In this document: in pieces, positions 30,495-52,044 of the stretch | How positions within the stretch are numbered: position 1 is the stretch's first letter | Layout: every line of letters begins with the position of its first letter | NCBI GenBank assembly: GCA_019245755.1 | Contig: JAFARC010000082.1 | Coordinates: 62,001 to 126,000, forward strand | From: Mycobacteriaceae bacterium | GTDB lineage: Bacteria > Actinomycetota > Actinomycetes > Mycobacteriales > Mycobacteriaceae | Length of the DNA: 64,000 bases | Direction: 5' to 3' | The notes under the pieces: model-generated | What the model saw: only the letters and a program-made list of their open reading frames with translations | Databases searched by the model: none | What the model was told of the DNA's origin: nothing | Translations under genes and position numbers: made by a program

Positions 30495-30956
30495 TCAGGC
30501 ACCCGCCCGCGGCTCGCGGACCGGGCGAAACTGCGGCAGCGCGAAGTTCCCGCGCTGTTCGAACACCACCTCCATCGGCAGGCCGCAACGCAGTTCACGC
30601 GGCTCGGCGTCGACGATGTTGGTGAGTATCCGCACTCCCGGCGCATCGTCGAGCTCGGTCAGCCCGATGATCAACGGCATCGCGTCCACGAAGCCAGGGT
30701 GAAAGGGCTGGTGAAGGATCGTGAACGCGAACAACGTGCCACGGCCGCTCACCTCGACCGCGATCGGCTTGCCTTCGGCACCGCCCGGCACCTCCGGCAC
30801 CGGGCTCGGCGGGTGCTGCAGGATGTCGGTCCCCTCGAAACCCTGGATAGTCAGCTTGCCGTCTTTGGCGTTGCGCCAATAGAATTCGCTCACCGCATCG
30901 GGGATCGGGGCGGGACGAACGTCGAGTTGGTTCGCATTTCCTTCGCCGGCGGTCAT
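30495..30956 (-). CDS. DUF35/OB-fold protein without the usual zinc-ribbon cysteines
   Basis: A 153-residue protein with the outline of DUF35 acyl-CoA-associated proteins: FYWRNAKDGKLTIQGFEG at the N terminus, PVPEVPG where the rubredoxin-like zinc ribbon would end, then the OB-fold (KPIAVEVSGRGTLFAFTILH, VDAMPLIIGLTELDDA, LRCGLPMEVVFEQRG). In usual members LxxQRCxxCG and CPxC motifs give four Cys; here the only Cys is in LRCGL. DUF35 proteins partner with SCP-type thiolases and Ltp2-type aldolases; the thiolase-fold gene is 20 kb away. It overlaps the upstream gene by four bases. Confidence 0.8.
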   Translation of the reverse strand: MTAGEGNANQLDVRPAPIPDAVSEFYWRNAKDGKLTIQGFEGTDILQHPPSPVPEVPGGAEGKPIAVEVSGRGTLFAFTILHQPFHPGFVDAMPLIIGLTELDDAPGVRILTNIVDAEPRELRCGLPMEVVFEQRGNFALPQFRPVREPRAGA

Positions 30957-31402
30957 CGCAGCCGCTCGCGGTCATCCGGCCCAAGATAAACCTGCGATTC
31001 CATCTGGTGAAAGATCCGCAACCGGCCTTGGCGGCGGATCAGCAGCCAGGTGATCCAGCTCGCGCCGGTGCGCTGCCGGTCTGATTCTCGGCCGGTCAGC
31101 CGCCACCGAGAAAGCAGCAGGGCACGCACGATCGCATCGTCCACCACGTCGAACGCGTGCAGGGTCGACGAGAGGGTTGCCGCTTTGAGCCGGCTACTGA
31201 CCCGGGCCCAATGCCGGTCGAGCTCGTCGGCACCCATCAGCGGCGCGGCGTACTCGTCGCCGAGATACATCGGTGCAGGACTGTCGTGCTCCCAAAGCTG
31301 GGCGATGCCACCGAAATCCAGGCTGGACCAGCGCTTGTCGTGTTCAGCCACCACATCCGCCAGCGCCGCCGCGACGGCGTCAGCCTCAGACGGCAGGGAC
31401 AC
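30953..31402 (-). CDS. SnoaL/NTF2-like protein
   Basis: A 149-residue NTF2-fold protein: DKRWSSLDFGGIAQLWEHDS, ADELDRHWARVSSRLK, then strands TLHAFDVVDDAIVRALLLSRWRL and GASWITWLLIRRQGRLRIF. It is related in fold, not closely in sequence, to the one at 19.6 kb. It overlaps the amidohydrolase upstream by 17 bases and the DUF35 gene by 4, so it is part of the operon starting with the Rieske ferredoxin. A ligand-binding or isomerase role is possible. Confidence 0.8.
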   Translation of the reverse strand: MSLPSEADAVAAALADVVAEHDKRWSSLDFGGIAQLWEHDSPAPMYLGDEYAAPLMGADELDRHWARVSSRLKAATLSSTLHAFDVVDDAIVRALLLSRWRLTGRESDRQRTGASWITWLLIRRQGRLRIFHQMESQVYLGPDDRERLR

Positions 31403-32555
31403 CGGCGCCAGCCTGTTCTCCGGGCAGCGCCTTCACCGTTGAAGGCAGGCCGTAAAGATCCGTGGCGTTGCCGCGCATAATGCGTTCGCGCTGAGCCGGC
31501 GGGAACCGGTTGACCGCCCAGGCCGGCGAGTCGTAACTCCAGTGCGGGTAGTCGGTCGAGAACATGATGTTGCCGCCCAGGTCCATCAGCTCCAGGTAAT
31601 CCCGGAAATCGCCGAGCGTGACATCTTCGAGCGGCTGCGTGGTGAACCGCACGTGTTCTCGGACGTACTCCGATGGCCGGCGGCGCACGTGCGGCAGGTC
31701 ACCCTTGCGCTGCTCCCAGATCCGGTCCATGCGCCACATCACCGGCATTGCCCAGGTGAAGCCGCCCTCGACGAACACGATCCGCAGATCGGGGTGCCGG
31801 TCGAACGCGCCGTCGAACACCAGGCTCATCAGGTGCGACACATACAGCAGCGGCCATGACGCGAAAAAGTCATGCCAGTGCGCCGGATTTCCGACCGGGT
31901 AGAGCGGAATCAGCTCGAACGGTGTCTGTCCCATCAGATGGGTGGCGACCGGTAAGCCGTGTCGCGCCGCGGCGTCATACAGCGGGTCGAAGTGCGGGCT
32001 GCCGAACGGGATGCCCCTGGTCTGGGGGGTTATCAGCACCTGGGCCATGTACGGGTGACCGGCCCACCGCTCGACTTCACGTGCCGCCTGTTCGGGGACC
32101 TGCGCGCTGACGCTGATCGACCCCCGCCAGCGTCCGTGCCAGTTGTTCGCGCACAGCCACACGTCGGCGAGCCAGTCGTTGTAGGCCGATTTCAGGACGT
32201 GTTCGGCCTGCGGAAGCTGCGCGTCGCACATCGGCTCCAGCGTCGCGATGCCGACCCCGGCGTCGAGAAGCAACTGCTTTGCGGCGAAGTCGGGATCGCT
32301 GCCCGCCATGCCACCGCCGGGCGGAGTGGCGTCGACCCGCAGGGACATCGTCTTGTAGGAGTCGGGCGTGTCGTAGAAATGCGGGGTCGGGGTTACCGCA
32401 TGGCCTCTCGGCCATACCGTGTCACGCCACTCGGCCGGCGCGTACGACTTCAGCACGTCGGCCGACACGGGCAACGGGTGCACGTCGGTGTCGACGATCG
32501 TCACCTCGATGTCGTTGGTGAGTACGTCGTCTTCGGCTGGTCGCACGCTCGTCAT
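31386..32555 (-). CDS. Amidohydrolase-2 family hydrolase
   Basis: A 389-residue TIM-barrel hydrolase with intact predicted metal ligands: IVDTDVHPLP near the N terminus, LPVATHLMGQ near the middle, and FSTDYPHW near the C terminus. It is about 40 residues shorter than the 1.8 kb paralogue. The gene directly upstream is a paralogue with changes at these positions, and the two overlap by four bases. The ATG at 32555 (MTSVRPAEDD) is chosen over the ORF start at 32735. Confidence 0.9.
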   Translation of the reverse strand: MTSVRPAEDDVLTNDIEVTIVDTDVHPLPVSADVLKSYAPAEWRDTVWPRGHAVTPTPHFYDTPDSYKTMSLRVDATPPGGGMAGSDPDFAAKQLLLDAGVGIATLEPMCDAQLPQAEHVLKSAYNDWLADVWLCANNWHGRWRGSISVSAQVPEQAAREVERWAGHPYMAQVLITPQTRGIPFGSPHFDPLYDAAARHGLPVATHLMGQTPFELIPLYPVGNPAHWHDFFASWPLLYVSHLMSLVFDGAFDRHPDLRIVFVEGGFTWAMPVMWRMDRIWEQRKGDLPHVRRRPSEYVREHVRFTTQPLEDVTLGDFRDYLELMDLGGNIMFSTDYPHWSYDSPAWAVNRFPPAQRERIMRGNATDLYGLPSTVKALPGEQAGAGVPAV

Positions 32556-33619
32556 GACAGACTTCCTTCGACTTCGGCACCGACCCCGTAGAGCTCTCTT
32601 GCGTTGCGCGACAGGACTTTTTCGCGTTGCACGTCGCTCAGCCCCGCGGTGGCGGCGGTTGGGCTGGTCGTTGACCAGTGTGGGTAGGCCGACCCGTACA
32701 TCAGCAGCTCGGTCTTGTCGGTGAAGTCCAGCCACCGCGCGGCGTGCGTGTCATCGGTGGGCCCGTCGAACGCCGACGAGCAGAATCGCACGTGGTCGCG
32801 CAGGTATTCACTGGGATAGCGGTCCACCCAGGGCGTCTGGTCACGCATCGAGACCCAGAAGGTATCCAGCCGCCACATCAGCGGGGTGAGGATGTCGTAG
32901 CCGCCATCGGCGAACACGAACCGAAGATCGGCATGCCGGCCGAAGACTCCCTCGATGATCAGCGTCGCCAGGTGCACGAAGGAGTTCAACGGCATGAACG
33001 CCGCGTAGCCGGGATAGGTGTGGGCGTGGCCGGCGAACGTGGGCGGGTGGTCGACGCCGTTGCCGCCGTTGATGTGCACGGCGACCGGGAGATTGTGCGC
33101 GGCGGCCGCCGCCCAGATCGGCTCGAACACCGGCTTGCCGTAGGGTTCCCGCGACTGCAGCGGAATGCCGACTTGCACCATCTTCGGATGGGCGGCAAGC
33201 CTTTCGATCTCCGCGACGGCGCCCCTGGGGTCCTCCGGATTGACGCGGATCGTGCCCCGCAGCCGCCCCGTCGCGTCGGCATCCAGCCACCGCTCCACCA
33301 GCCAATCGTTGACCGCCGCGCAGATTCTGCTGTTCAGCAGGTAGTCGGCGATGTTGCCGCGGGTCAGCGGGTTGAGGATCGCGCAGGCGGCACCGCCCTC
33401 GTCGAACAGGTGCCGGCACAACGTCTCCCGGTCAGAAGCCGGATAGTGTTCGCCGTAGAGATCCTGGCGGTAATCGCCACCGGGAGCCTGATACCACTGC
33501 TGCTCGACGTCGGGAATCGCGCGCAGCCGATAGGACGGCGGCAGGTATCGCCGGATTTCGGCGTTGTAGCGGAAGTGCGGCGAGACGTTGGCGTCGATGA
33601 CCGGGTAGGGGTTACTCAT
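32552..33619 (-). CDS. Amidohydrolase-2 family paralogue with altered metal-binding motifs
   Basis: A 355-residue barrel protein like its downstream neighbour, but two of the three conserved metal-site segments are changed. The usual D-x-H reads VIDANVSPHF, and the usual SDYPHW reads YGSAYPHW, so the conserved Asp is Ala. The central His in LPVAVHINGG is kept. It may have lost hydrolase activity and act as a partner subunit, or use a different chemistry. Coding looks intact, with no stop or frameshift. It overlaps the ferredoxin gene by four bases. Confidence 0.88.
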   Translation of the reverse strand: MSNPYPVIDANVSPHFRYNAEIRRYLPPSYRLRAIPDVEQQWYQAPGGDYRQDLYGEHYPASDRETLCRHLFDEGGAACAILNPLTRGNIADYLLNSRICAAVNDWLVERWLDADATGRLRGTIRVNPEDPRGAVAEIERLAAHPKMVQVGIPLQSREPYGKPVFEPIWAAAAAHNLPVAVHINGGNGVDHPPTFAGHAHTYPGYAAFMPLNSFVHLATLIIEGVFGRHADLRFVFADGGYDILTPLMWRLDTFWVSMRDQTPWVDRYPSEYLRDHVRFCSSAFDGPTDDTHAARWLDFTDKTELLMYGSAYPHWSTTSPTAATAGLSDVQREKVLSRNARELYGVGAEVEGSLS

Positions 33620-33981
33620 GCGGTGAGATACACCTGCCCATCGGTGACGTCGACCTGGTAGATACGGACCCGCTTGGCCGCATCGGCGACGGTCTGACCG
33701 GTGGTGATGTCGAATTCCCACTGGTGCCAGGGGCACCGCAGGATCCGCCCCTCCCGCACGTAGCGGAGATGACCGGGCGCGTCGGGCGCGAATTCGTTCG
33801 TGCCACCCACAAAACCCGCACACAGCGGCGCGCCCTCGTGCGCGCAGTAATTCGCGATCGCATGCAGTGAACCGCCGATGTTGTACACGCCGACACCGTA
33901 CTTGCCCACCGGGACCAATTTCATGGTCCCCGGCGGAAGATCCTCGACCGCACACACCGGCCGTCGGCGCATCACCGGCAT
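33616..33981 (-). CDS. Rieske-type [2Fe-2S] ferredoxin
   Basis: A 121-residue single-domain Rieske protein, with CAHEGAPLC and, about 30 residues later, CPWHQW giving the Cys/His ligands. Short Rieske ferredoxins shuttle electrons to P450s and ring-hydroxylating oxygenases, of which several are in the window. It is the first gene of a minus-strand operon with two amidohydrolases, a SnoaL protein and the DUF35 protein. Start at 33981; ATG at 33972 is an alternative. Confidence 0.92.
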   Translation of the reverse strand: MPVMRRRPVCAVEDLPPGTMKLVPVGKYGVGVYNIGGSLHAIANYCAHEGAPLCAGFVGGTNEFAPDAPGHLRYVREGRILRCPWHQWEFDITTGQTVADAAKRVRIYQVDVTDGQVYLTA

Positions 33982-35381: not shown

Positions 35382-36539
35382 ATGAGGAGCCGCGCGGCCA
35401 TCCTGCACGACGTCGGCGGCCCGTGGTCGGTCGAGGAGTTCGAACTGGATCCCCCGCGGTCCGGAGAGGTCCTCGTCCAGATGGCGGCGGCGGGACTGTG
35501 CCACTCCGACGACCACGTCCTGAAGGGCGACATGTCCGCGCCGAACGACGTGCTGCGATCCCTCGGCCTGCCAACGATGTTCCCGCTGATCGGCGGGCAC
35601 GAAGGTGCAGGCATCGTTGCGCAAGTCGGCGACGACGTGACGGATTTCGCGTCCGGTGACCACGTCGTGATGTCGTTCATATCGGTCTGCGGCCGGTGCC
35701 GCTGGTGCGCATCCGGCATGGAATACCTGTGCGACAACGGCGGACAGGTCCTGACTCCGGGGATGCCGACCGACGGGACGTTTCGCCACCACACCGCCGG
35801 CCGCAAGCCGCTGGGTCACATCTCCAAGATCGGTGCCTTCGCCGAACACACCGTGGTGTCGGCGAATTCGCTCGTCAAGATCGAGCCGCACCTGCCCCTG
35901 GTCGCCAGCGCCCTGTTGTCGTGCGCGATCCCGACCGGATACGGATCGGCCGTCAACCGGGCCGGGGTGCGCGGCGGCGACACCATGGTGGTCATCGGCG
36001 CCGGCGGAATCGGGACCGCCGCTATCCAGGGCGCCCGCATCAACGGCGCGGCACAGATCATCGCGGTGGATCCGGTCGAGTTCAAGCAGAAGGCCGCGCT
36101 GCGCTTCGGCGCCACTCACAGCGTCGCCGGTGCGGCCGAGGCCACGGAGTTGGTCCGGGAGCTGACCTATGGCGTGATGGCCGACAGCGTCGTCGTCGCA
36201 CCCTCGCTGATCTCCAGCGACGACGTCCACGCGGCGGTCAAGCTGACCCGCAAGGGCGGAACGTGCGTGCTCACCGGGATGACACCGCAGACAACGCGAT
36301 CGGTCAAGATCGCACTGCAGGATTTCATCCTGTGGAACAAGAACCTGCTCGGCACCGTGTTCGGGTCATGCAACCCCAGGGCCGACATACCGCGGTTCGC
36401 CCGCATGTACGACGCCGGCCAGCTGCTGCTCGACGAGATGATCACCCAACGCTACCGGCTGGACGACGTCAACCAGGCCTACCGCGACCTGCTGAACGGC
36501 GAAATCATCCGCGGTGTCATCGACTTCGGGCTCGGCTGA
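35382..36539 (+). CDS. Zinc alcohol dehydrogenase, NDMA-dependent type
   Basis: A 385-residue medium-chain dehydrogenase. The catalytic-zinc residues are in GLCHSD and GGHEGAG, the structural zinc Cys in CGRCRWCASGMEYLC, and the NAD motif is VIGAGGIGTAAIQGA. The N terminus (AAILHDVGGPWSVEEFELDPPRSGEV) fits the NDMA-dependent actinobacterial group linked to mycofactocin, where NADH is not freely released. It is 7 bases from the P450 and probably oxidises its product. Confidence 0.94.
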   Translation: MRSRAAILHDVGGPWSVEEFELDPPRSGEVLVQMAAAGLCHSDDHVLKGDMSAPNDVLRSLGLPTMFPLIGGHEGAGIVAQVGDDVTDFASGDHVVMSFISVCGRCRWCASGMEYLCDNGGQVLTPGMPTDGTFRHHTAGRKPLGHISKIGAFAEHTVVSANSLVKIEPHLPLVASALLSCAIPTGYGSAVNRAGVRGGDTMVVIGAGGIGTAAIQGARINGAAQIIAVDPVEFKQKAALRFGATHSVAGAAEATELVRELTYGVMADSVVVAPSLISSDDVHAAVKLTRKGGTCVLTGMTPQTTRSVKIALQDFILWNKNLLGTVFGSCNPRADIPRFARMYDAGQLLLDEMITQRYRLDDVNQAYRDLLNGEIIRGVIDFGLG

Positions 36540-36545
36540 GTTGAG

Positions 36546-37610
36546 TCAATCGAGGCCGTAAAAGCGCTGCGCGTTCGACGCGCCGATCTTTTCTCGGGTC
36601 TGCTCGCTGATGTCGCGGCGGGTACGCAGATGCTTTGTGCTCTCGGGCCACTCGCCGTCCCAGTGCGGATAGTCGCTGGCGAACATGATGAAGTCGGCAC
36701 CGAGCACGTCGATGACCCCGGGCAGGATCGGCTCCTCCGGCTCGCAGGTTGTCCAGATGTTGCCGGCTTGCAGGTATTCCACCGGATCGCGTCGCCAACC
36801 GCGTTCGATCCAGTTGCCGCGTTTCTCGAAATGCTCATGCAGTCGGTCGATGAAGAAGGGAACCCAGCCGACGCCGGCCTCGAGGAAGGCGACTTTCAGT
36901 GCGGGGTGTCTGTCGAAGACACCGCCCGAGACCAGCGCGGTCATCGCGGTCATCTGGTCGAACGGGAAGCTGATGCAGTGGACCTGAATGTAGTTGGTGA
37001 AGCGGTCCACGCCGATCTTGGGCAGGTGCATGCCCGGCGCGCCGTGAATTCCGAGCGGCATCTCCGATTCGACCGCGGCCGCGTAGAAGGGGTCGAGGTC
37101 GGGGTGATCGAGGTTGCGGGCCTTGAGTGCCGGCGGGATGTGGGTCGCCACCAGGCCTAGGCCCTTCGCCTCGCGCATGATGTCGATCGCGACGTCGCCG
37201 TGCTCGATCGGGGTCACGGCGACGCCGCGTAGCCGGCCACCGGCCGGGCGGCAATAGTCGGCGATCCACTCGTTGTAGAGGCGGGCGAAACCGGCCGCGA
37301 ATTCGGGATCCTCGAGGGTGGGGGTGGCCAGCCCGAGGCTGGGATAAAGGACCATCGTGTCGATCTGATCGCGATCCGCGTCGCCAAGCACGCCTTCGGC
37401 GGACGCCAGGTTTATGCCCGGCGCGGTGCTCAGCCCGTGCTCAGTCGGGCAGCCGGCACCCGGGCCGCTGGACTCGGGATAGTTGCGCCCCTCGATCACC
37501 AGGCCGGGCGCATCGGTACGCGGGCTGATGTGCCGCGGCCAGCGCTGCATCGCCTCAACCGCGAAGGACGCTGCCTCCGCGACATGCCCGTCGGCGTCGA
37601 TGATTCGCAT
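36546..37610 (-). CDS. Amidohydrolase-2 family hydrolase
   Basis: A 354-residue TIM-barrel hydrolase. Metal-site segments are IIDADGHVAE at the very start, LGIHGAPGM and ASDYPHWDGEWP, all of which keep the expected His and Asp. It is the fourth paralogue, closer to the 1.8 kb gene in the DYPH-W-ES block. The ATG at 37610 (MRIIDADG) is chosen; the ORF to 38048 is an artefact over the VOC gene. It is convergent with the dehydrogenase gene, stops 6 bases apart. Confidence 0.9.
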   Translation of the reverse strand: MRIIDADGHVAEAASFAVEAMQRWPRHISPRTDAPGLVIEGRNYPESSGPGAGCPTEHGLSTAPGINLASAEGVLGDADRDQIDTMVLYPSLGLATPTLEDPEFAAGFARLYNEWIADYCRPAGGRLRGVAVTPIEHGDVAIDIMREAKGLGLVATHIPPALKARNLDHPDLDPFYAAAVESEMPLGIHGAPGMHLPKIGVDRFTNYIQVHCISFPFDQMTAMTALVSGGVFDRHPALKVAFLEAGVGWVPFFIDRLHEHFEKRGNWIERGWRRDPVEYLQAGNIWTTCEPEEPILPGVIDVLGADFIMFASDYPHWDGEWPESTKHLRTRRDISEQTREKIGASNAQRFYGLD

Positions 37611-37630
37611 ACGTCCCTCCACAACCTCGA

Positions 37631-41580: not shown

Positions 41581-42843
41581 TCACCGCGCCGGATCGAACT
41601 CGAGGTGCAGCTCGGTCAGGCCGCGCAAGATGAATGTCGGTTCGTAGCTGTAGCGCACATTGTCCGCCGGCCCGTGCGACGCATCGGAGATCTTGATATC
41701 GGACATCCGGTCGAGGATCCGGTTCAAAGAAATACGACCTTCAGCGCGGGCGAGGGGTGCGCCGGGGCAGGAGTGGTTGCCGCGCCCGAACGCCACGTGC
41801 TCACGGACATTGGGCCGGTCGACGCGAAATTCGTGTGGCTGATCGAATTTGCGGGGGTCGCGATTGCTCGCGCCGGGCAAAAGCATCATCGTGGTGCCCG
41901 CCGGTATGGGGACGTCGCCAACGGTGGTTGACGTGCGCGCCAAGCGGAAGTGGCTCTTGACGGGGCTTTCCATCCGCAGTGTTTCCTCGAGGAAGACCGG
42001 GATGCGGCTGCGGTCCTCGCGCAGCGTTTTCTGAAGGTCGGGACGCTCGCCGATCACCCGCATGGCGGCGCTGAGCAACTTGGTGGTGGTTTCTTGGCCT
42101 GCGGTGAACAGAAACGTCGCCACTCGCACGACGTCGATGATCTCCGGAGTGGATCCGTCGGGGTATTTTGCCTCAGCAAGCTCGGTGAGCACGTCCCCAC
42201 GGGGCTCGCGCCGGCGGTCGACGACGTAACCGGAAAATTTGTCGTCGAGCCACTCCAGCGGATGGTGGGTGATGGCCTCGTCGTCGATCGCCCCGACAAG
42301 CTGATGGGCCAAAACTTCCCGGAACTGTTCGTGGTCCTCTGCGGGGACACCCAGCAAATCCGCAATCACCAACATCGTGAACGGTTTGGCGTAATCTTGC
42401 AGGAATTCACAATTTCCGCGGGACACGAACTCGTCGAGCTGCCGATCGGCTAACCGCCACATGAACTCTTCGTTTTCCTTGAGGCGCTTGGGTGTCAGCA
42501 GCCGGCTCAACAGGCCTCTGGTGCGGGTGTGATGCGGCGGGTCTTGGGTGACGATGTGTTCGCTCATCGGGATTTGATCACGGCGTTGTTCGATCAGCTC
42601 GCCGAGGTCATCCCCAGCGGCTGAGAGTGAAACACCCGAAAATGGACCCGCCACGGCGACGCACGAGGAGAACGCTGCGTCCTTGTACACCGACAGCGCT
42701 TCGGAATATCCGGTGACGGCCATGACCTCAAACGGCGTCTCCCGCGACACCGGGCACTTCGAACGCAGGTAATCGAAGTAGGGATATGGGTCGGCGATGA
42801 GGGACTCGTCGGTGAAGAAGTCAACCGATTCGAAATCACGCAC
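41581..42843 (-). CDS. Cytochrome P450
   Basis: A 420-residue P450. The I-helix motif is FLFTAGQETTTKLL, the K-helix is EETLR, and the heme loop is FGRGNHSCPGAPL. N-terminal text (DPYPYFDYLRSKCPVSRE) is that of soluble bacterial P450s. Its promoter carries a motif B site about 70 bases upstream. It is more distant from the other three P450s than they are from each other. It is followed by the acyltransferase gene. Confidence 0.95.
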   Translation of the reverse strand: MRDFESVDFFTDESLIADPYPYFDYLRSKCPVSRETPFEVMAVTGYSEALSVYKDAAFSSCVAVAGPFSGVSLSAAGDDLGELIEQRRDQIPMSEHIVTQDPPHHTRTRGLLSRLLTPKRLKENEEFMWRLADRQLDEFVSRGNCEFLQDYAKPFTMLVIADLLGVPAEDHEQFREVLAHQLVGAIDDEAITHHPLEWLDDKFSGYVVDRRREPRGDVLTELAEAKYPDGSTPEIIDVVRVATFLFTAGQETTTKLLSAAMRVIGERPDLQKTLREDRSRIPVFLEETLRMESPVKSHFRLARTSTTVGDVPIPAGTTMMLLPGASNRDPRKFDQPHEFRVDRPNVREHVAFGRGNHSCPGAPLARAEGRISLNRILDRMSDIKISDASHGPADNVRYSYEPTFILRGLTELHLEFDPAR

Positions 42844-42908
42844 GAAAAGCCTCCTGGGTGTTCACGCGACGCTGCGGTACACGGCCGTGGTCGGCTCGCC
42901 TCAACGTC

Positions 42909-42937
42909 AATGTAGGACTGAACAAAAATTAGGTCAA
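42909..42937 (-). promoter_or_regulatory. Motif B promoter of the P450/acyltransferase operon
   Basis: Minus strand: TTGACC, 17 bp, TACATT, reading toward the P450 start at 42843. The core is GACCTAATTTTTGTTC, with the semi-palindrome preserved at the outer arms. Confidence 0.8.
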
Positions 42938-42971
42938 GGTGGTGCTCTTGTGGAGGCGGTCGGGTGGTCGG

Positions 42972-43079
42972 TCACTGTGAAACGGAGTTGGTGGTCGCGA
43001 CTCGGGCATCGCTGGTGATGGCATCGAGGTTCTCGGCGACGTCTTCGGCGGTGAGCGGTCCCTTCTCCCCTCGTGCCGA
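42972..43079 (-). pseudogene. Possible remnant of a gene tail
   Basis: The minus strand ends with KGPLTAEDVAENLDAITSDA, SVSQ and a stop. The GP(L/V)TAEDVAENLD pattern recalls C-terminal tails seen in some SDR-type or similar oxidoreductases. No start or further domain is present. The call is weak. Confidence 0.3.
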
Positions 43080-43104
43080 TATCCTGCGCACACGTGTCGT
43101 ATGC

Positions 43105-44322
43105 CTAGCTTGCCTGCGGGTCGAACAGGACCGGCAACGACGTTGGTGATCGGAAAACCTGGCCGCGGATGTGCGGGTCGTCGCCCTCGCGATCCAGTCG
43201 CAGATTGGGTAGCCGATCACATAGCAAGTTGAGCGCGACGCGCATCTCGAGCCGGGCGAGATGCATTCCCAGGCAGACGTGTACCCCATGCCCGAAGCCG
43301 ATATGCGCACGTGCCGAGCGGAAGATGTCGAAGCGGTCCGGATCGGGGTAGCGCTCCTCCTGCCGGTTGGCCGCCCCCAGCACCGGCATCACAGAAGAGC
43401 CGGCGGGGATCGGCACACCGCCCAGTTCGGTGTCGCGGGTCGCCACGCGGGTGATGGTCAGCAGGGGAGCCTCCCAGCGGACCGCTTCCTCGATCGCCTG
43501 CGGGATCAGCGAGCGGTCGGCACGCACGGCGTCGAGCTGATCCGGGTTGGTCAGCAAGCCCAACAGCAGATTTCCCAGCGAGCGGTATGTGGTTTCCACT
43601 CCGGCGGGCAGCAGCAGCCGCAAAAACGAGAAGATTTCCTCGTCGGTGAGCTTCTCCCCGTCGATCTCGGCCTGGGCGAGGCCACTGATGAGGTCATCGC
43701 GTGGTTCCCGGCGCCGGTCGGCCAGGATCGGAACAAAATATTCGCGCAACGCTTCCGAAGCCGCGAGGCCGCGCTCGCGATTGAACAGGATGGCCAACAG
43801 CGCGAGCGACCAACGTTGGAATTGCGGATAATCCTCGCGCGGCAGGCCCAGCAGGCTGGCGATGATCTGCGTCGGATACGGAAAGGCGAAGTCCCGCCGA
43901 AGATCGGCACGCCCGTTTCTGGCAAACCGGTCAATCAGCTCGCTGGCGACCTTGCCGACCAGCTCGTCCTCCCACCGCGCAAGCGCCTTCTGGGAGAAGG
44001 CCTTTGACACCAGCGCGCGGTGGCGGCCATGCTCGGGCTCATCCATCCCGAGCATGACGTGTTTGCCCAGGGCATCGCCGAACGCATCGATGATGATGGC
44101 AGAGGAGAACGTCTCGTTGTCCCGCAACATTTGGGCCACCTCTTCGTGGCGGTACACCATGAAGACCGGTTTTGACTCCGCATGCGGCATGCCCGACATG
44201 TCGATGCGCTGCACGGGCTCCTCCCGCCGCAATCGGGCCAGCTCGGTATAGGGGTCGCGAACATCGCCCGACACAACGTCGTCGAATGTGCCGAAGTCCT
44301 CGAGATCGTCGAACAGCTCCAC
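43105..44322 (-). CDS. Cytochrome P450
   Basis: A 405-residue P450 paralogous to the one at 34.2 kb: shared SFLRLLLPAG-ETTYRS I-helix region and SLIP-AIEEA block. Heme loop FGHGVHVCLGMHLARLE. The GTG start at 44322 is preceded by GAAGGAG seven bases upstream; the ORF to 44580 is an antisense extension. The aldehyde dehydrogenase is 10 bases upstream, and the whole run from 49.1 kb appears to be a single operon. Possible order of reactions is hydroxylation, then oxidation by SDR and ALDH. Confidence 0.95.
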   Translation of the reverse strand: MELFDDLEDFGTFDDVVSGDVRDPYTELARLRREEPVQRIDMSGMPHAESKPVFMVYRHEEVAQMLRDNETFSSAIIIDAFGDALGKHVMLGMDEPEHGRHRALVSKAFSQKALARWEDELVGKVASELIDRFARNGRADLRRDFAFPYPTQIIASLLGLPREDYPQFQRWSLALLAILFNRERGLAASEALREYFVPILADRRREPRDDLISGLAQAEIDGEKLTDEEIFSFLRLLLPAGVETTYRSLGNLLLGLLTNPDQLDAVRADRSLIPQAIEEAVRWEAPLLTITRVATRDTELGGVPIPAGSSVMPVLGAANRQEERYPDPDRFDIFRSARAHIGFGHGVHVCLGMHLARLEMRVALNLLCDRLPNLRLDREGDDPHIRGQVFRSPTSLPVLFDPQAS

Positions 44323-44332
44323 TGGTGCTCCT

Positions 44333-45817
44333 TCAGCTGGCGGGGTAGCCCACCGACTTGATCTGGGTGTATTGATCGAAACCGGCGACACCGTTCTGAC
44401 GCCCGACACCGCTGGCCTTGTAGCCCCCAAACGGGGTGTCGGCGCCGTAGGGCGCCGCACCTTGCACACCGATGAACCCGGCCCGCAGCCGGCGCGCGAC
44501 TGCCAGCGAGTGCTCCACCGAGCCCGACATAACGTTGCCGGCCAAGCCGTAGGCACTGTCGTTGGCGATGCGGATCGCATCCTCCTCGTCGTCGAACGGG
44601 ATCACTGCCAGCACCGGACCGAAAATCTCCTGCTGCGCGATGGTCATCGCGTTGTCGACATCTACGAAAAGCGTTGGCGGCACCCAGAATCCCTTGTCGA
44701 ATCCCCTCGGCGCCTCGGTGCCGCCGACCAAGCAGGTGGCGCCCTCGTCGATGCCCTTTTCGATGTAGCCGAGAACACGTTTGCGTTGCTTGTCGGAGAT
44801 CACCGGTCCGCACAAGGTAGCGGCATCCTGCGGATCGCCCGGAGAGACGTTCTCGTACATCCCCTTGAGGATCGCGACGCCCTCGTCGTAGCGAGACCGG
44901 GGCAGCAGCAGGCGGGTGGGATTGGCGCAACCCTGTCCGGCGTGCATGCACGGTGCGATCCCGATAGCACACGCCAGCCCGAAATCGGCGTCGTCCAACA
45001 CAATGGTGGCCGACTTGCCGCCCAGCTCGAGGAACAGGCGCTTCATCGTCGCCGCGCCTTTTTCCATGATCCGCTGCCCCACGGCGGTGGAACCGGTGAA
45101 AGAGATAAGGTCGACCTTCGGCGAGAGCGTAAGCTCCTCGCCCAGCAGGTGATCCGACGCCGTAACGACGTTGACAACCCCGTCGGGTATGTCGGTGGCT
45201 TCGGCGATCAACCGTCCCATTCGAGTGGCGTTAAACGGGGTGTCGGGTGCGGGTTTCAGCACCACAGTGTTACCGGTGGCCAGCGCCTGGGCCAGCTTGT
45301 GGATGGTGACCTCGAACGGAAAGTTCCACGGCACGATCGCGCCAACCACCCCGACCGGTTCGCGCCAGACCTTACGGGTGGTGTTCTGAGCGGTCAACGC
45401 GACGAAGGCATCGCCGAGGTCGGTCTCCCATGGGTATTCATCGATGAGCTTGGCCGGATAGGTCAGCGCGTCGGCTAGTGGCGCGTCGAGCTGGGGCCCG
45501 TAGGTGATTGCGCGCGGGCAGCCGGCTTCGGCGATGAGTTCCTCACGCAGCGCTTCTTTTTCAGACTCCAGTGCCTGCTGGAACTGCTCAAGGCAGCGCT
45601 TGCGCAAACCGTGGTTTGTGGACCAGTCGGTGTCGTCGAACGCCCGCCGCGCGGAGTCGATGGCACGGTGCATGTCGGCCGTCGACGCGTCGGCGACTTC
45701 CCCGAGCACCTCCTCGGTGGCTGGGTTGATGTTGGTGAACGTGCCCGCAGCGCCGCCGACGAGCTTGCCGTCGATGAGCATCCGCGACTCGTGATCGACC
45801 TTCGCAGTGTCAGCCAT
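44333..45817 (-). CDS. Aldehyde dehydrogenase (NAD(P)-dependent)
   Basis: A 494-residue ALDH. Motifs: IVPWNFPFEV, FTGSTAVGQRI, LELGGKSATI with the general base, and MHAGQGCANPTR with the catalytic Cys. GYKASGVGRQNG near the C terminus fits. It overlaps the upstream SDR gene by eight bases. It is about 9 residues longer than the 17.2 kb ALDH and not closely related. In this operon an SDR and a P450 flank it. Confidence 0.95.
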   Translation of the reverse strand: MADTAKVDHESRMLIDGKLVGGAAGTFTNINPATEEVLGEVADASTADMHRAIDSARRAFDDTDWSTNHGLRKRCLEQFQQALESEKEALREELIAEAGCPRAITYGPQLDAPLADALTYPAKLIDEYPWETDLGDAFVALTAQNTTRKVWREPVGVVGAIVPWNFPFEVTIHKLAQALATGNTVVLKPAPDTPFNATRMGRLIAEATDIPDGVVNVVTASDHLLGEELTLSPKVDLISFTGSTAVGQRIMEKGAATMKRLFLELGGKSATIVLDDADFGLACAIGIAPCMHAGQGCANPTRLLLPRSRYDEGVAILKGMYENVSPGDPQDAATLCGPVISDKQRKRVLGYIEKGIDEGATCLVGGTEAPRGFDKGFWVPPTLFVDVDNAMTIAQQEIFGPVLAVIPFDDEEDAIRIANDSAYGLAGNVMSGSVEHSLAVARRLRAGFIGVQGAAPYGADTPFGGYKASGVGRQNGVAGFDQYTQIKSVGYPAS

Positions 45818-46868
45818 CGTTCTCGCTTTCTTCAGTCGGCGGGTTGTCGCCGACCGGTGCGGCCATGCCGTCAGCCGGGCGGTGACGCGAAAACCTCATT
45901 GCCAGCGGTGCTGCCCGCTGCACCACCGGTGCCGGCAGCACGCGAGCGGCGAGCAGCATCGTCCGCTGGCGCAGACTCAGCGCGCCGGCAGCTGCCGACC
46001 CGTCCCGCAGCGCGCCGGGGCGCGGGATGCCCATCGCTAGCCGGGTCAGCTGGTGAAGGACCAGTGTGGGCAGGAGGCGATTGCTGATCAGCAGCATGCG
46101 CGCGTCGATGCCGACCGCATGCCGGGCGAACGGGGCCTTGTCCTCCACAGCCTTGGTAAGTCGCGTGGCGAAGCGGTCGGGCGGGGCGGCGAAGCGCATC
46201 GCGAAACGGCCCCGGCGGTCGATCGTGGCATGGTGCCGGGCGTAGGGGCCGGTGAAGTCCCGGTAGTCTTTGACACCGTTGTCGGTGATGATGTCGGTGT
46301 CGAAGGTTCCGGCTACCAGCACGGTGACGCCCAGTCCAAACGGGGCGACTTCGCCCGCCAGGGATTCGGCCCACCGCTCGAGCGCGCCCTTGGCGGCGGA
46401 ATAGGCTGCGATCTCCGGCATGCCCCGCACGCCGCCCTGGCTGGATATCATCACGATCCGGCCTCGGCCCGCAGCCCGCATGGCCGGCAGCAGCGCCTGA
46501 GTGAGCGCCACCGGCCCGAAAAGGTGAGTACAAAAGATCTGCTCCCATACGTCGCGCGGCAGCTCCTCGACAGACCCGGCGGCGGCGATCCCGGCGTTGT
46601 GCACCAAGGCGTCCGGCGCGCCGACGGCCGCCTCGATGGCTTTGGCGGCCGTGTCGACAGATGCCCGGTCAACCAGGTCGAGTTGGATGCCGATCAGGCG
46701 TGGATCGTCGGCGGTTGCGCCGGCTGCCGCCCGCAGCGCCGCCAGTCCCGTGTCCAGCGAGCGCATGGCCGCCACCACCCGCCAGCCCTGCTGGTAAAAA
46801 CGGATGGCCGTTGCGAGACCGAGTCCGCGGGAGGCGCCGGTGATCACCACGGTGCGTGGCTCAGCCAT
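45810..46868 (-). CDS. SDR oxidoreductase with long C-terminal extension
   Basis: A 352-residue protein: the first 250 are a classical SDR (TGASRGLGLATA, HNAG in LVHNAGIAAA, ISSQGG, YSAAKGA), and about 100 more residues follow (helical, IDARMLLISNRLLPTLV, RQRTMLLAARVLPAPVVQRAAPLA). Such long-tailed SDRs often act on lipids or steroids in actinobacteria. It overlaps both neighbours by eight bases: the ALDH downstream and the AveC-like membrane protein upstream. Confidence 0.92.
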   Translation of the reverse strand: MAEPRTVVITGASRGLGLATAIRFYQQGWRVVAAMRSLDTGLAALRAAAGATADDPRLIGIQLDLVDRASVDTAAKAIEAAVGAPDALVHNAGIAAAGSVEELPRDVWEQIFCTHLFGPVALTQALLPAMRAAGRGRIVMISSQGGVRGMPEIAAYSAAKGALERWAESLAGEVAPFGLGVTVLVAGTFDTDIITDNGVKDYRDFTGPYARHHATIDRRGRFAMRFAAPPDRFATRLTKAVEDKAPFARHAVGIDARMLLISNRLLPTLVLHQLTRLAMGIPRPGALRDGSAAAGALSLRQRTMLLAARVLPAPVVQRAAPLAMRFSRHRPADGMAAPVGDNPPTEESENDG

Positions 46869-47997
46869 GGGCCGCCCCGCACCGCCCGCCGTCGGCCGGC
46901 GGCGTCACGTCCGGGCGTCCGTGCGGTTGGCCGCTCATCCAGGTCGACCAGATCCCCACAGAGTACGGGCCCGGCTGGCCGTTCTTCTCGTAGAAGCCCT
47001 GCGGGTCATAGACTTTGGCCTCCGGATACGGCCAGGGGCAGGCCACGGAGGTCGCCGTGCGCGACCACTTGATCGCCGTGAACCAGCCGCCGTAAGCGAA
47101 GAAGTAAGCGGCATTGAGGACGATGAACAACACCACGAACGTGCCGAGCACCGGGCGTCCGACGAAGATGGCTGCCCGCCGAGCCAGTTTCTCGGCGACC
47201 GTGCGGCCTGTGTCGTCCCGGTACACCAGCACCCCCGCCGGAATCATCACAAAGGTCACCGACAGCGACTCCCACAGCAGCGGGAACTGGAAGGGCGTGC
47301 CGGTGAAGATGGACCCGAAGGGGATTATCTGGTCATAGATGTAGAGCCCGGTACGGATCATCGAAACTTCGAGGAACGCGTCGAAGACGAAACCGACGAC
47401 CAGGATCAGCCCGGCCAGACAGATCAGCGGGTGGCGCCACACGAACGAATCGACGGGCCGGCGGCCCTGAATCCGGCGCAGTATCCAGACTGCCGGGAAG
47501 TACGGCGTCGCATAAAACATCGCGTACCCGAAAACGATAAACGGTTCCACAGTGGGCGACAATGACACCAGCGGCCAGTCCTCTGGCCAGTGCCACAGTC
47601 GCGGGTTGTAGACCGCATACGGCGCCCAATTCATGATCGGGTCCTGCCACACGATCAATGTCGTGACGAGCACCATCAGCAGGACGGGGTGAGCGGGATG
47701 TCGTCGCCAAGCGATCACGAAAACCCCGATGACGATGGCCATCGCGATGGCGGTGCCGATCTGATTAATCGTGAGCCACGTCGAACTGTTCAACCCCAGC
47801 AGGTAGTGCACCGGGCGTGGTGCGCCGCTGACCCGTGGATTGCGGATCCGGTCGGACACGGCGCCCGAGCGGGCGTAGTAGGCGACCACCGCGACAGCAG
47901 CGACGGCGAGGATGGCCCACAGCGCGGTGAGTGCCGAGCGCGTGCTGGGCTTGGGATGCTGAGCGAGGGCGGACGGCGTGGTCTGCTCCGTGGTCAT
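46861..47997 (-). CDS. AveC-like integral membrane protein (putative spirocyclase family)
   Basis: A 378-residue protein with about seven membrane helices, for example LWAILAVAAVAVVAYYA, INQIGTAIAMAIVIGVFVIAW, HPLICLAGLILVVGFVFDAF and PVLGTFVVLFIVLNAAYFFAY. The pattern, with GLYIYDQIIPFGS and conserved acidic residues between helices, recalls AveC, the bifunctional spiroketal cyclase/dehydratase of avermectin biosynthesis, and related proteins annotated in actinobacteria. That AveC proteins make spiroketals is known for Streptomyces; in this catabolic context the reaction is unknown. The ATG at 47997 is used. It overlaps the SDR gene by eight bases. Confidence 0.75.
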   Translation of the reverse strand: MTTEQTTPSALAQHPKPSTRSALTALWAILAVAAVAVVAYYARSGAVSDRIRNPRVSGAPRPVHYLLGLNSSTWLTINQIGTAIAMAIVIGVFVIAWRRHPAHPVLLMVLVTTLIVWQDPIMNWAPYAVYNPRLWHWPEDWPLVSLSPTVEPFIVFGYAMFYATPYFPAVWILRRIQGRRPVDSFVWRHPLICLAGLILVVGFVFDAFLEVSMIRTGLYIYDQIIPFGSIFTGTPFQFPLLWESLSVTFVMIPAGVLVYRDDTGRTVAEKLARRAAIFVGRPVLGTFVVLFIVLNAAYFFAYGGWFTAIKWSRTATSVACPWPYPEAKVYDPQGFYEKNGQPGPYSVGIWSTWMSGQPHGRPDVTPPADGGRCGAAHG

Positions 47998-48001
47998 GGG
48001 T

Positions 48002-49120
48002 CTATTCCTGACCGAACCGGTCGACGAGATGGGAGTTGATGCCGTCGGTATCCAGCGTGCGGGCGACCAGATAACCAGCACCCATCCAGGCCCGCCGCGT
48101 CCACTTTCCGAACGACACCCGGGTGCCGGGCGCGCCGGCCGCAGCGGGCAGCATCTTGACCCGCTCCAAAGCCTCCTTGACCCCACGGGGACTCAGTGGG
48201 TGGGCATCGGTGAACGCACGCAACAGCGTGGCCGCCACGTCACGGTTCACCACCGGCACGCAATACTGCGGGCGGCGGCCGTGGTTGCCCTGGTATTGAT
48301 CGAGGAACCGCTGGCCGACCGGATTGCTCTCGTCGTACTGATCGATGCCGGTCCATCCCATGAATGCTTTCCACATCACCGGATTGACCCATGCGTTCTG
48401 GAAAGCCGTGCTGGTGTACCGGGGCGGATCCCAGTTCAAGGCCTGCAGGGCGGGGTTGATGAAGACAATCCCGAACCCGAAGCCGCAGTGCACAACCGCT
48501 TGTGCCTTGGCCTCATACAACGTGCGCACTGCGTCGTTGACGTCCTGCGCGGTCTGTGCAATCTGCGCCTCGGCGACGATCCGGATGCCTTTACGCCGGC
48601 AGGCGTTTCGAAAATTCTTGAGATAGCTCTCGCCGACCAGCGACTGCTCGACCAGGACACCGACCTCGGTGTGGCCGCCTTTCGCGAGCAGGTCGGCCCA
48701 GAAGATGGGTTCATCGGTCATCGATCCCTGCGGGAACGAAAACGTCCACTCCCCCAGCCAGTCGTCGGTGCCCGTGACGCTGATCGCCGGCACCCGGAAT
48801 CGGTCCTCGATCGCCTCGCGGGTCGGCACGGCATTGTCGGTGATGTGCGGACCGAACACGACGAGGCAACCTTCATCAACGAGTTCGCCGTAGGCATCGA
48901 TAACCGCCTTTACCGTTCCTTTGGGAAGGCCCTCGACTTCCCGGTACACGATGTCGACGGGGCGGTCGATAATCCCCTGCTCCAGGCCTTCGCCGAACAC
49001 CAATTCGAACGGAATGGTGAGGTCGTCCCGCATCTCCTGCGGGTAGCCCTCCGGCAGCAGAAAGTCAAAGAGGTAGCCAATCTTGATCGGCTCCGCCGTG
49101 CTCTCGTAGGACATTGACAT
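48002..49120 (-). CDS. Periplasmic-binding-type protein without signal peptide
   Basis: A 372-residue two-lobed ligand-binding protein of the branched-chain amino-acid/amide group (Peripla_BP_6): IKIGYLFDFLLPEGYP near the N terminus, VVFGPHITDNAVP, TEVGVLVEQSLVGES, and AQAVVHCGFGFG. It starts MSMSYESTAEPIKIG, so there is no signal sequence or lipobox, and no ABC permease or ATPase is adjacent. It may be a cytosolic sensor, as AmiC is, rather than a transporter component. It is the first gene of the five-gene operon. Confidence 0.88.
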   Translation of the reverse strand: MSMSYESTAEPIKIGYLFDFLLPEGYPQEMRDDLTIPFELVFGEGLEQGIIDRPVDIVYREVEGLPKGTVKAVIDAYGELVDEGCLVVFGPHITDNAVPTREAIEDRFRVPAISVTGTDDWLGEWTFSFPQGSMTDEPIFWADLLAKGGHTEVGVLVEQSLVGESYLKNFRNACRRKGIRIVAEAQIAQTAQDVNDAVRTLYEAKAQAVVHCGFGFGIVFINPALQALNWDPPRYTSTAFQNAWVNPVMWKAFMGWTGIDQYDESNPVGQRFLDQYQGNHGRRPQYCVPVVNRDVAATLLRAFTDAHPLSPRGVKEALERVKMLPAAAGAPGTRVSFGKWTRRAWMGAGYLVARTLDTDGINSHLVDRFGQE

Positions 49121-49223: not shown

Positions 49224-50060
49224 TCAGTGGCCGGTTAGGTAGGCGTCGATCATTTCCACCAGCCCGCTCGTCACGATCGAGTCGTCGGTCAGTGGCGCGG
49301 CCACCGCCGCTCGGGCGGCCTCGCCCGGGTTGAGCCCTTCGGCGATGAGCTGTGCGGCCGCGATCAGCACCCTCGTGGATGCGACCTCGCGCAGCCCCGC
49401 TGTCTGCAAGCGGCGAATCGCCTGCCCCAGCCGTACCAGCTCGGCGGCCGTCGCATGGTCGACGCCGGCCTCATAGGCGATGATCTTCTCTTCGATGTCC
49501 GGTGCCGGGAAGCCGAACTCGATGGCGATCATGCGCTGGCGCGTCGAGTCCTTGAGGTCTTTGAGGACGCTTTGGTAGCCCGGGTTGTAGGACATGACGA
49601 GGCAGAAACCCTGCGCCGCGTCGAGCGTCACGCCCAGCCGCTCGATCGGAAGCTGGCGGCGGTGATCGGCGAGCGGATGAAGAACGACCGTGGTGTCCTG
49701 CCGAGCCTCGACGACCTCGTCGAGATAGCAGATGGCGCCTTCGCGCACCGCGCGCGTCAACGGTCCGTCGACCCATTCAGTTTCGCCGCCGCGGAGCAGA
49801 AAGCGCCCGACGAGATCGGCGGTGGTCAAGTCGTCGTGGCACGCCACCGTGATGAGCGAACGCTCCAGGTCATATGCCATGGCCTCGACGAAGCGCGTTT
49901 TCCCGCAGCCCGTCGGGCCCTTGAGCAGAACCGAGAGGCCTTGCCGGAACGCCGCCTTGAACACGCGTTCCTCGTTGCCGATCGGCACGTAGTACGGGCG
50001 CTGCGCCGGCGTACCCGTGTCGGGACGCGCGGTAGGAATGCGGTCGCCCGACACTAGCAT
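49224..50060 (-). CDS. MoxR-type AAA+ ATPase, CbbQ/NorQ-like
   Basis: A 278-residue AAA+ protein. Walker A is LKGPTGCGKTRF near residue 47, Walker B is GAICYLDEVVEA, and sensor regions follow (VMSYNPGYQSVLKDL, STRQRM). CbbQ/NorQ proteins work with a VWA partner (CbbO/NorD) to remodel or insert metals into an enzyme such as Rubisco or NO reductase. The VWA gene is upstream on the same strand, 194 bases away. No obvious client metalloenzyme of those types is here. Confidence 0.93.
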   Translation of the reverse strand: MLVSGDRIPTARPDTGTPAQRPYYVPIGNEERVFKAAFRQGLSVLLKGPTGCGKTRFVEAMAYDLERSLITVACHDDLTTADLVGRFLLRGGETEWVDGPLTRAVREGAICYLDEVVEARQDTTVVLHPLADHRRQLPIERLGVTLDAAQGFCLVMSYNPGYQSVLKDLKDSTRQRMIAIEFGFPAPDIEEKIIAYEAGVDHATAAELVRLGQAIRRLQTAGLREVASTRVLIAAAQLIAEGLNPGEAARAAVAAPLTDDSIVTSGLVEMIDAYLTGH

Positions 50061-50160
50061 CGGGCCTTCAGCGCTTCAGCGACGGTTTTGGTGCCGACGC
50101 CCCCGCCATCCAACATTGTGTGCTCCGCCTAGTCAATTCTGCTGCCGTGCCAGTTCGGGC

Positions 50161-50189
50161 AGCGTAGCGCGGAACAGATGTTTGGCTCA
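50161..50189 (-). promoter_or_regulatory. Motif B promoter of the AAA+ gene
   Basis: Minus strand: TGAGCC, 17 bp, TACGCT, about 100 bases before the ATG at 50060. The core is AGCCAAACATCTGTTC. It lies in a 194-base gap between the VWA and AAA+ genes, so the AAA+ gene has its own promoter. Confidence 0.75.
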
Positions 50190-50254
50190 AGTACGCCAGT
50201 GGATCGCCGCCAATCCTCCGGCGACCGCGTTGACCGACCGCTGCTGAGGGGTGC

Positions 50255-51955
50255 CTACGACACCCGTCGGCGAAGTTCGGCGGAGCCGAGCGCCTGACGG
50301 AATAATGGGCCCACCAGATGGCTCAACTGGTCAAGCCGCGGGATCGTGGCGTGCGCCGCGGTGCCGAACACCCGCTGTAGCTCGTGGGCATCGGTGCCGG
50401 CGCCGATCGTGAGGCACAGGCAGCCGGTTCCCCGGCGGTGCGCCTCGGCGAGGGCGCGACGGGCGTCGGCGGCGCCGTACACGCGTTCGTAGCCGTGGTC
50501 ATAGGCAAGGCCGTCGGACAGCACCACAAGCAGCCGGCGAGGCGTGCCGCCGTGGCGCTCCAACACCGCCGTGCCGTGGCGGATCGCCGCGCCCAGCCTC
50601 GAGTACGCGCCGGGTGTCAGGCCGCGCAGACGTCGCATCGCCAGCACGTCGATGTGGTCGTTGAAGCGCTTGACCGGCATTAATTGCACGGCAAAGCGCC
50701 CGTGTGAACGAAACGCATACAGGGCTACTCGGTCTCCCAGGTCATGGAGCGTGACGGTAAGGGCGGCGGCCGCCGACAGCTGTTGCTCGTGCACGGTCTG
50801 GCCGACATTGCCCGGTTCGGCCACCGAGCCCGAGGTGTCGAGCAGGATCAGCACCGCCAGGTCACGCCGCAGCCGCGGATTGTCGAGGTAGACGGCATCA
50901 TCGGGCGCCGACCCGGCCATGACCTCCACTTGGGCCTCGACCGCGGCGTCAATGTCGATGTCGTCGCCCTGAGACTGGCGGTGACAACGCTGGGGGCCCA
51001 TGCCGAGGCGCGCCAGCGGCCGACGCAACCCATATCCGTTCATCGCGCCCAGCGACGTGTCCTCGGCCTTGGGGCGCGGCTGTACCTCGTAGACCGTGCA
51101 CCAATCGGGCCGATAGCGCCGTCGGTGACTGTCCCACTCGGGGTATGTGGTCGCGTGCGGGTCGCCGGTGTGTTCTGCAAAAGCGTCCGCCTGCGCGGTC
51201 GAGGACACGGCGGCGGCGCCGCGGATGCCAGAGCGGGCCCGGTGGGTGGGCGCGTCGGCGCCCGGCGGTCCGCCGTCACCCAGTGAACGCACCACGCTGA
51301 GCATCTTCTGGAGAAATTTGCCCAGTGCGCCCCCTCCTCCCACCGGACTGGAGAAGATGTCGAGGGCGTCGCCGCCGTCGTCGTCTTCGTCGATATCGCT
51401 CAGCACCGCGTCGCGCCGGCGGCGCGGAATATGCTCACCCGCCGAAGCTGAATCGCCGGTGCGTGTGCCGGCTCCCAGCAGTTTGCGGGCGTGGATGACC
51501 CCAAAGCTTGCCGGCGGGCTGGGGACCGTCTCCCGGCTGAGCGCCACCGCCAGCGATGCGATGGGCGAATCGGTGCGACGAGCGACGTCCGAGTCGATCA
51601 TCGAGCGCACCATCGGCGGCAGCAGCTCGTCGTTGGCTGCCAGCGCCCGGTGCCCTTCCACGGCCAGGTATCGCCTAGCCACTCCCGGGCGCCCCCTGAA
51701 CCTGCGCACGACCGCCTGCTCGAGGCTTCCGGCCGCGAGCAGCGAGGCCTGGACAGAAAGCGTTGCGATCTGCTCTTCCGGATCGGCCTCGGCGTCGACG
51801 TAGACTGTGCGGCCATCCGTCCAGGCCGGCTCGCTTGATTCGACCGGGGCCACCTGCAGGGACGCGCCGGCCAGCGCCGAGGCAAGCAGGTCAAGCCGCT
51901 TCAACCCCCTGTTCCCATCGTCGCTACGATCCGTCGTCAACGCGTCCTGCTGCAT
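50255..51955 (-). CDS. VWA-domain protein, CbbO/NorD-like
   Basis: A 566-residue protein. The C-terminal von Willebrand A domain has a MIDAS motif LLDTSGSVAE, with later VVLSDGLAY and TIGAGTDAHEL. The N-terminal half is helical and acidic in the middle (DIDEDDDGGD), typical of NorD/CbbO proteins that act with a MoxR ATPase. The ATG at 51955 (MQQDALTTD) is chosen because the ORF start at 52099 runs into the divergent acyl-CoA dehydrogenase gene and its promoter. It is divergent from that gene across a motif B site. Confidence 0.9.
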   Translation of the reverse strand: MQQDALTTDRSDDGNRGLKRLDLLASALAGASLQVAPVESSEPAWTDGRTVYVDAEADPEEQIATLSVQASLLAAGSLEQAVVRRFRGRPGVARRYLAVEGHRALAANDELLPPMVRSMIDSDVARRTDSPIASLAVALSRETVPSPPASFGVIHARKLLGAGTRTGDSASAGEHIPRRRRDAVLSDIDEDDDGGDALDIFSSPVGGGGALGKFLQKMLSVVRSLGDGGPPGADAPTHRARSGIRGAAAVSSTAQADAFAEHTGDPHATTYPEWDSHRRRYRPDWCTVYEVQPRPKAEDTSLGAMNGYGLRRPLARLGMGPQRCHRQSQGDDIDIDAAVEAQVEVMAGSAPDDAVYLDNPRLRRDLAVLILLDTSGSVAEPGNVGQTVHEQQLSAAAALTVTLHDLGDRVALYAFRSHGRFAVQLMPVKRFNDHIDVLAMRRLRGLTPGAYSRLGAAIRHGTAVLERHGGTPRRLLVVLSDGLAYDHGYERVYGAADARRALAEAHRRGTGCLCLTIGAGTDAHELQRVFGTAAHATIPRLDQLSHLVGPLFRQALGSAELRRRVS

Positions 51956-51972
51956 CCCATACCACCGCGCGA

Positions 51973-52001
51973 GTTTGACCAAATATCTGTTCCAGGGTAG
52001 A
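51973..52001 (+). promoter_or_regulatory. Motif B promoter between VWA and acyl-CoA dehydrogenase genes
   Basis: TTGACC, 17 bp, TAGAGT, reading toward the GTG at 52045, 43 bases from the -10 box. Core GACCAAATATCTGTTC. The 90-base divergent gap holds this one site, so it may control both directions. Confidence 0.85.
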
Positions 52002-52044
52002 GTTCTGGCTTGGCCGCAGTCAATGTTATGAAGTTGACGGGAAC

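Follow-up and report, generated by a model that had tools for sequence, protein, structure and literature searches.

The adjacent PF04909 genes H1 and H2 in the window (the whole stretch of 64,000 nucleotides that was analysed) most likely encode, by analogy with characterised systems, two subunits of one oxygen-using enzyme that is supplied with electrons by a small iron-sulfur protein. We are fairly confident that H2 is a Rieske-fed oxygenase and that H1 is a metal-free pseudoenzyme subunit, the two together making a heteromeric member of the amidohydrolase-related dinuclear oxygenases (AROs), a recently recognised oxygenase class with unusual Fe/Fe or Mn/Fe chemistry. The sequence-only reading had called the pair amidohydrolases; this label is misleading, since structure matches and phylogeny place both proteins in the part of PF04909 occupied by Rieske-linked oxygenases, apart from its hydrolases and decarboxylases. 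If our interpretation is true, the label is functionally wrong for these genes.

Five tightly packed genes lie on the minus strand in the order Rieske [2Fe-2S] ferredoxin (33616..33981), H1 (32552..33619), H2 (31386..32555), a 149-aa protein (30953..31402), and a ChsH2-type OB-fold protein (30495..30956; PF01796, 4.4e-19) that ends the run. The ferredoxin occupies an AibG-like position, matches PF00355 (4.3e-15), and carries the cluster residues C46-x-H48 ... C83-x2-H86. Because ATGA overlaps join the ferredoxin to H1 (33616 to 33619) and H1 to H2 (32552 to 32555), we infer that these three genes share one transcript. As had been proposed from the sequence, the 355-aa frame of H1 (33619..32552, minus strand) is intact and translationally coupled, upstream to the ferredoxin and downstream to its paralogue. 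The 149-aa frame overlaps the end of H2 by 17 bases and shares a further ATGA overlap with the OB-fold gene; its product appeared NTF2/SnoaL-like by eye, gave no match in a Pfam search, and was detected in 14 of 80 loci.

A genome scan recovered these 80 orthologous loci, all from Mycobacteriaceae and 74 to 85% identical. Every one had the small ferredoxin, H1, and H2 in identical order, with the Cys and His residues of the ferredoxin cluster invariant. A divergent cytochrome P450 (34166..35374, plus strand) adjoins the triad in 75 of the loci, and the NDMA-dependent alcohol dehydrogenase beyond it (35382..36539, plus strand; TIGR03989, above cut-off) is kept in 74; this conserved arrangement suggests a catabolic module. 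No dedicated reductase or AibF was found adjoining the triad in the window, and a search of the same genome for an AibF-like reductase gave weak matches only, including to the RHA1 oxidoreductase.

The closest characterised arrangement is that of AibH1H2, which together with AibG and AibF forms the 2-aminoisobutyric acid monooxygenase of Rhodococcus wratislaviensis (PMC7782822, PMC10401708). The protein assembles as a heterotetramer: catalysis takes place in AibH2, and AibH1 holds one metal, apparently structural (PMC7782822, PMC10401708). It works only as a pair, although AibH1 is itself noncatalytic (PMC7782822). Published work characterises AROs by a dinuclear site built from six ligands and, as their hallmark, a small Rieske protein encoded nearby (PMC10811679, PMC10401708). 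Like AibH1H2, the window combines two paralogous PF04909 subunits with a Rieske ferredoxin, and a similar split into one catalytic and one noncatalytic subunit may apply. The six AibH2 ligands (D25, H27, H211, E265, D337, and H340; PMC7782822) are the same residues in H2 (D24, H26, H206, E263, D335, and H338), and they are present in every complete H2 copy among the 80 loci. The observation that this paralogue keeps both metal-binding motifs therefore holds.

At the same six positions H1 has N S H D A H and thus lacks the ligand set of an ARO catalytic subunit. In alignments to SfbO and AibH2, the D-x-H ligand pair falls on N11-V-S13 (codons 33587..33589 and 33581..33583, minus strand), and both ligands are lost. 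The sequence-only reading was right that the D-x-H motif has gone, but the Asp of the "DANV" that it placed there is not at a ligand position. It had also reported the conserved Asp of the C-terminal motif as Ala, which we confirmed: H1 has GSAYPHW with Ala311 (32687..32689, minus strand), where H2 has STDYPHW with Asp335. The barrel Glu of catalytic AROs is Asp238 in H1 (32906..32908, minus strand). H182, D238, and H314 remain, as does the Tyr-Pro-His-Trp of the loop. AibH1 retains its five Site 0 ligands (D24, H26, H201, E255, and D328) and binds Zn/Mn, whereas in H1 three of these are gone and the Glu is changed to Asp, leaving only the His201 equivalent.

Related pairs were recovered in other settings. 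A second operon in the same genome, on contig C70 (L101, 8795-11439), has the order H1b-H2b-Rieske, with S H H D S H at the ligand positions of H1b and a complete H2b that carries Thr at the position of AibH2 Asp342. It is followed by genes for an alpha/beta hydrolase, a NuoF-like NADH/FMN protein, an OB-thiolase fusion, two hydroxyisobutyrate-dehydrogenase-like proteins, and a P450, a candidate reductase and CoA-thioester pathway; the NuoF-like protein could be the reductase of the C70 pair. Rhodococcus jostii RHA1 (plasmid pRHL2) and Rhodococcus USK10 have the order H2 (complete, Asp at the 342 position), Rieske, H1 (C T H D N H), followed on pRHL2 by an annotated PDR/VanB oxidoreductase. 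More pairs occur in other families of the order, one of which (L162) has an H1 reading S Q R D G A. A Sinorhizobium fredii plasmid (L145, 3844-6497) encodes two PF04909 subunits, one complete and one degenerate (A H H D R Y), along with a Rieske protein and a PDR/VanB oxidoreductase; this pair is probably an alphaproteobacterial member, although its H1 is a long branch. Across the 80 orthologues and the paralogous and distant pairs, the paired H2 always has six ligands and H1 is always degenerate. Six ligand-type residues in both subunits were seen in the AibH1-like rows and in three alphaproteobacterial plasmid pairs. The latter, from Microvirga, Mesorhizobium, and Roseomonas (L144, 4803-6982; L146, 4983-7155; L147, 4980-7159), are related to AibH1/AibH2, adjoin sugar ABC transporters, and have Gln at the 342 position of the first subunit. 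Haloarchaeal plasmids also carry PF04909 genes whose products have the full ARO ligand set, with Rieske genes close by (L137, 5950-7484; L138, 5932-11575).

The metal site of H2 departs from that of AibH2 in its second shell, where Ser340 stands at the position of Asp342. This Ser is found in all 79 readable H2 orthologues; the second mycobacterial H2 type has Thr. The Asp342-type acid is a proposed mark of binuclear sites and is not a metal ligand in AibH2 (PMC7782822). Since RHA1-type H2s still have the Asp, the change to Ser probably occurred within this lineage. It is conceivable that H2 is an oxygenase subunit with a single metal and the pair a mononuclear variant, given that AibH1, which has six ligand-type residues and no Asp342-type Asp, is mononuclear (PMC7782822). 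We consider this unlikely, because none of the six residues that coordinate the two metals in AibH2 and SfbO is missing from H2, RHA1-type H2s of the same clade retain the Asp, and the AibH2 D342A variant, although less active, still takes up the full metal complement (PMC10401708). The lower activity of that variant, together with Ser340, suggests that H2 may work differently from AibH2.

Sequence searches against solved structures returned SfbO (8sm6; 7.6e-56) as closest to H1 and 8sm7 (3.6e-63) as closest to H2. SfbO and three other AROs led for both proteins, in differing order, with AibH2 and AibH1 following or mixed in and the decarboxylases and PtmU3 far behind. A fold search with the predicted structure of H1 (pLDDT 75, pTM 0.82) also placed SfbO, other AROs, and AibH1H2 first; the prediction for H2 (pLDDT 60) was too poor to use. 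Both proteins match Pfam PF04909, and NCBIfam has no model for either. The 5-carboxyvanillate and gamma-resorcylate decarboxylases of the LigW type share the fold and the Pfam family, but their matches are far weaker. LigW-type decarboxylases are mononuclear and non-redox. PtmU3 (6omp), likewise of PF04909, is a monooxygenase with a dinuclear site, but it is far more distant (8.9e-12 to H1 and 2.7e-15 to H2) and has no auxiliary subunit (PMC10401708). SfbO and the other single-gene AROs (8sm6 to 8sm9; PMC10811679) share with H2 the Rieske neighbour and the six ligands; unlike H1/H2, they are encoded by one PF04909 gene without a degenerate partner and carry Asp at the 342 position.

In a tree of 82 rows, moderately sampled and with a model that may mislead on deep branches, both H1 and H2 fell in the ARO clade (100/99), H2 together with SfbO, 8sm7, 8sm9, and AibH2, and away from the other amidohydrolase paralogues of the genome. 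PF04909 does include ordinary metal hydrolases, hydratases, and decarboxylases, and a P450 that the ferredoxin might serve lies next to it in most loci, so that a pair of such an enzyme and an inactive partner could be imagined. This is quite improbable, considering the shared ARO clade, the coupling of the ferredoxin within the H1-H2 operon, and the ferredoxins of the C70-type, RHA1-type, and rhizobial pairs, which accompany the pair in other genomic contexts.

Losses in H1 are focused on the active site. We compared 18 H1s at the 24 columns where conservation among H2 and other AROs reaches 95% or more. Nine of these columns were lost in half or more of the H1s (D24, H26, E263, W268, Q307, P308, D335, D342, and P344 in H2 numbering), including four of the six ligands, while most others were kept; taken alone, the over-representation of ligands in this lost set is not significant (Fisher P = 0.15). 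A further thirty positions show conservation confined to H1, which fits a protein that has taken on a new noncatalytic role. These positions, with D238 and H314 each invariant in 80 of 80 orthologues, might also be taken to mean that H1 binds another metal or ligand through H182, D238, and H314 and has its own chemistry, an option the sequence-only reading had raised. We regard this as very doubtful, as the residual His residues are replaced in some homologues. H182 is Arg in four of the 80 orthologues and in other H1s, and the four orthologues indicate that it is dispensable; some family members have Ala, Ser, or Asp in place of H314 (Asp or Ser in those of L170 and L177).

Phylogenetic analysis placed H1 and H2 rows as sister clades (together 100/99), with AibH1-like and AibH2-like rows forming a separate pair of sister clades (together 100/99); therefore, two-subunit ARO pairing arose at least twice. 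When the degenerate H1 rows and the AibH1-like rows were constrained to a single clade, the tree was 44 log units worse (AU P = 0.048); with the long-branch S. fredii H1 left out and more pairs added, the same constraint cost 33 log units (AU P = 0.003). The possibility that H1 is an AibH1 orthologue is rejected by this test and by the ligand set. Loss of the metal ligands thus appears to belong to one paired lineage, that of H1/H2, which comes from a duplication separate from that of AibH1H2 and differs from it also in gene neighbourhood, in the absence of AibF beside the triad, and in the Ser of H2. The branching of the H1 subtree is for the most part mirrored in that of H2, and the two genes are co-inherited. 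An independent role for H1 as a sensor or carrier, and not as a subunit of H2, is very unlikely in light of these mirrored trees, the fixed adjacency of the genes, and the AibH1H2 precedent.

The degeneration of H1 is ancient. Among the 80 orthologues, canonical residues are absent throughout at positions 11 (N in 63, S in 10, C in 6, and G in 1), 13 (Q in all), 238 (D in all), and 311 (S in 39, G in 22, A in 16, N in 2, and H in 1), so the expectation that orthologues might retain them, which would have pointed to an error or a recent mutation, was not borne out. H1 is degenerate in all of roughly 100 relatives examined, and of 199 species sampled from the genus, 160 carry an H1-family member. 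Purifying selection acts on H1 (dN/dS about 0.13), as it does on H2 (0.10) and the ferredoxin (0.15) in the same comparison. Only Ser13 is particular to the window, nothing else favours a sequencing error or recent mutation, and orthologues and dN/dS together rule out both error and pseudogene for the H1 substitutions, the chance of which is practically nil. In one triad, that of M. genavense (L077, 5998-8185), an in-frame stop interrupts H1 and H2 is split over two frames; this is likely a decayed locus.

The suggestion that H1 is a pseudoenzyme partner is thus well supported by invariant pairing, losses centred on the active site, co-inheritance, orthologues that are never canonical, and purifying selection on a gene whose catalytic residues are lost beside an intact paralogue. 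By analogy with AibH1H2 and SfbO, H1 and H2 would form a heteromeric ARO, probably alpha2/alpha'2, in which the coupled ferredoxin hands electrons to H2. H2 would bind a two-metal site, Fe/Fe or Mn/Fe, and may activate O2 for hydroxylation or oxidative dealkylation of a small catabolic substrate. H1, presumably without a catalytic metal, would keep its barrel and contact surfaces and is probably a support or control subunit; as a guess, it might support the active-site loop of H2 (STDYPHWSYD), ferredoxin docking, or both. Metal-free packing in H1 would take the place of the structural metal of the AibH1-type partner. Because AibH1H2 becomes insoluble upon substitution of Site 0 residues (PMC10401708), loss of the partner's metal is not trivially tolerated. 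Interface contacts of AibH1 described in a review (K282 and Y287; PMC12141560) are not conserved in H1 (Thr and Met), and no contact could be transferred.

More tentatively, H1/H2 could represent an independent class of two-subunit ARO with a metal-free partner and a catalytic subunit lacking Asp342, in which H1 shapes or gates O2 chemistry, for example by completing the active-site loop of H2 or by controlling electron entry. If so, H2 would depend on a metal-free paralogue in order to function. The reason that AibH2 requires AibH1 is unsettled in the ARO literature, and a literature search, with preprints and most subscription papers outside its range, found no described degenerate or metal-dead ARO partner. 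The H1/H2 lineage is a natural experiment on this point: with a partner apparently free of metal and co-inherited with the catalytic subunit, it makes the question of scaffold versus metal testable.

Other genes were observed in the window. A third PF04909 gene (36546-37613, minus strand) has six complete ligands and Asp at the 342 position; it is without an adjacent Rieske gene, lies outside the ARO clade, and is syntenic in 5 of the 80 loci. Two more P450s, an aldehyde dehydrogenase, an SDR, and an AveC-like spirocyclase homologue stand in series at 41581-48186, which suggests a specialised catabolic or biosynthetic cluster. At 49224-52099 (minus strand), a CbbQ/NorQ-type AAA+ protein adjoins a VWA-domain protein, a chaperone-like pair.
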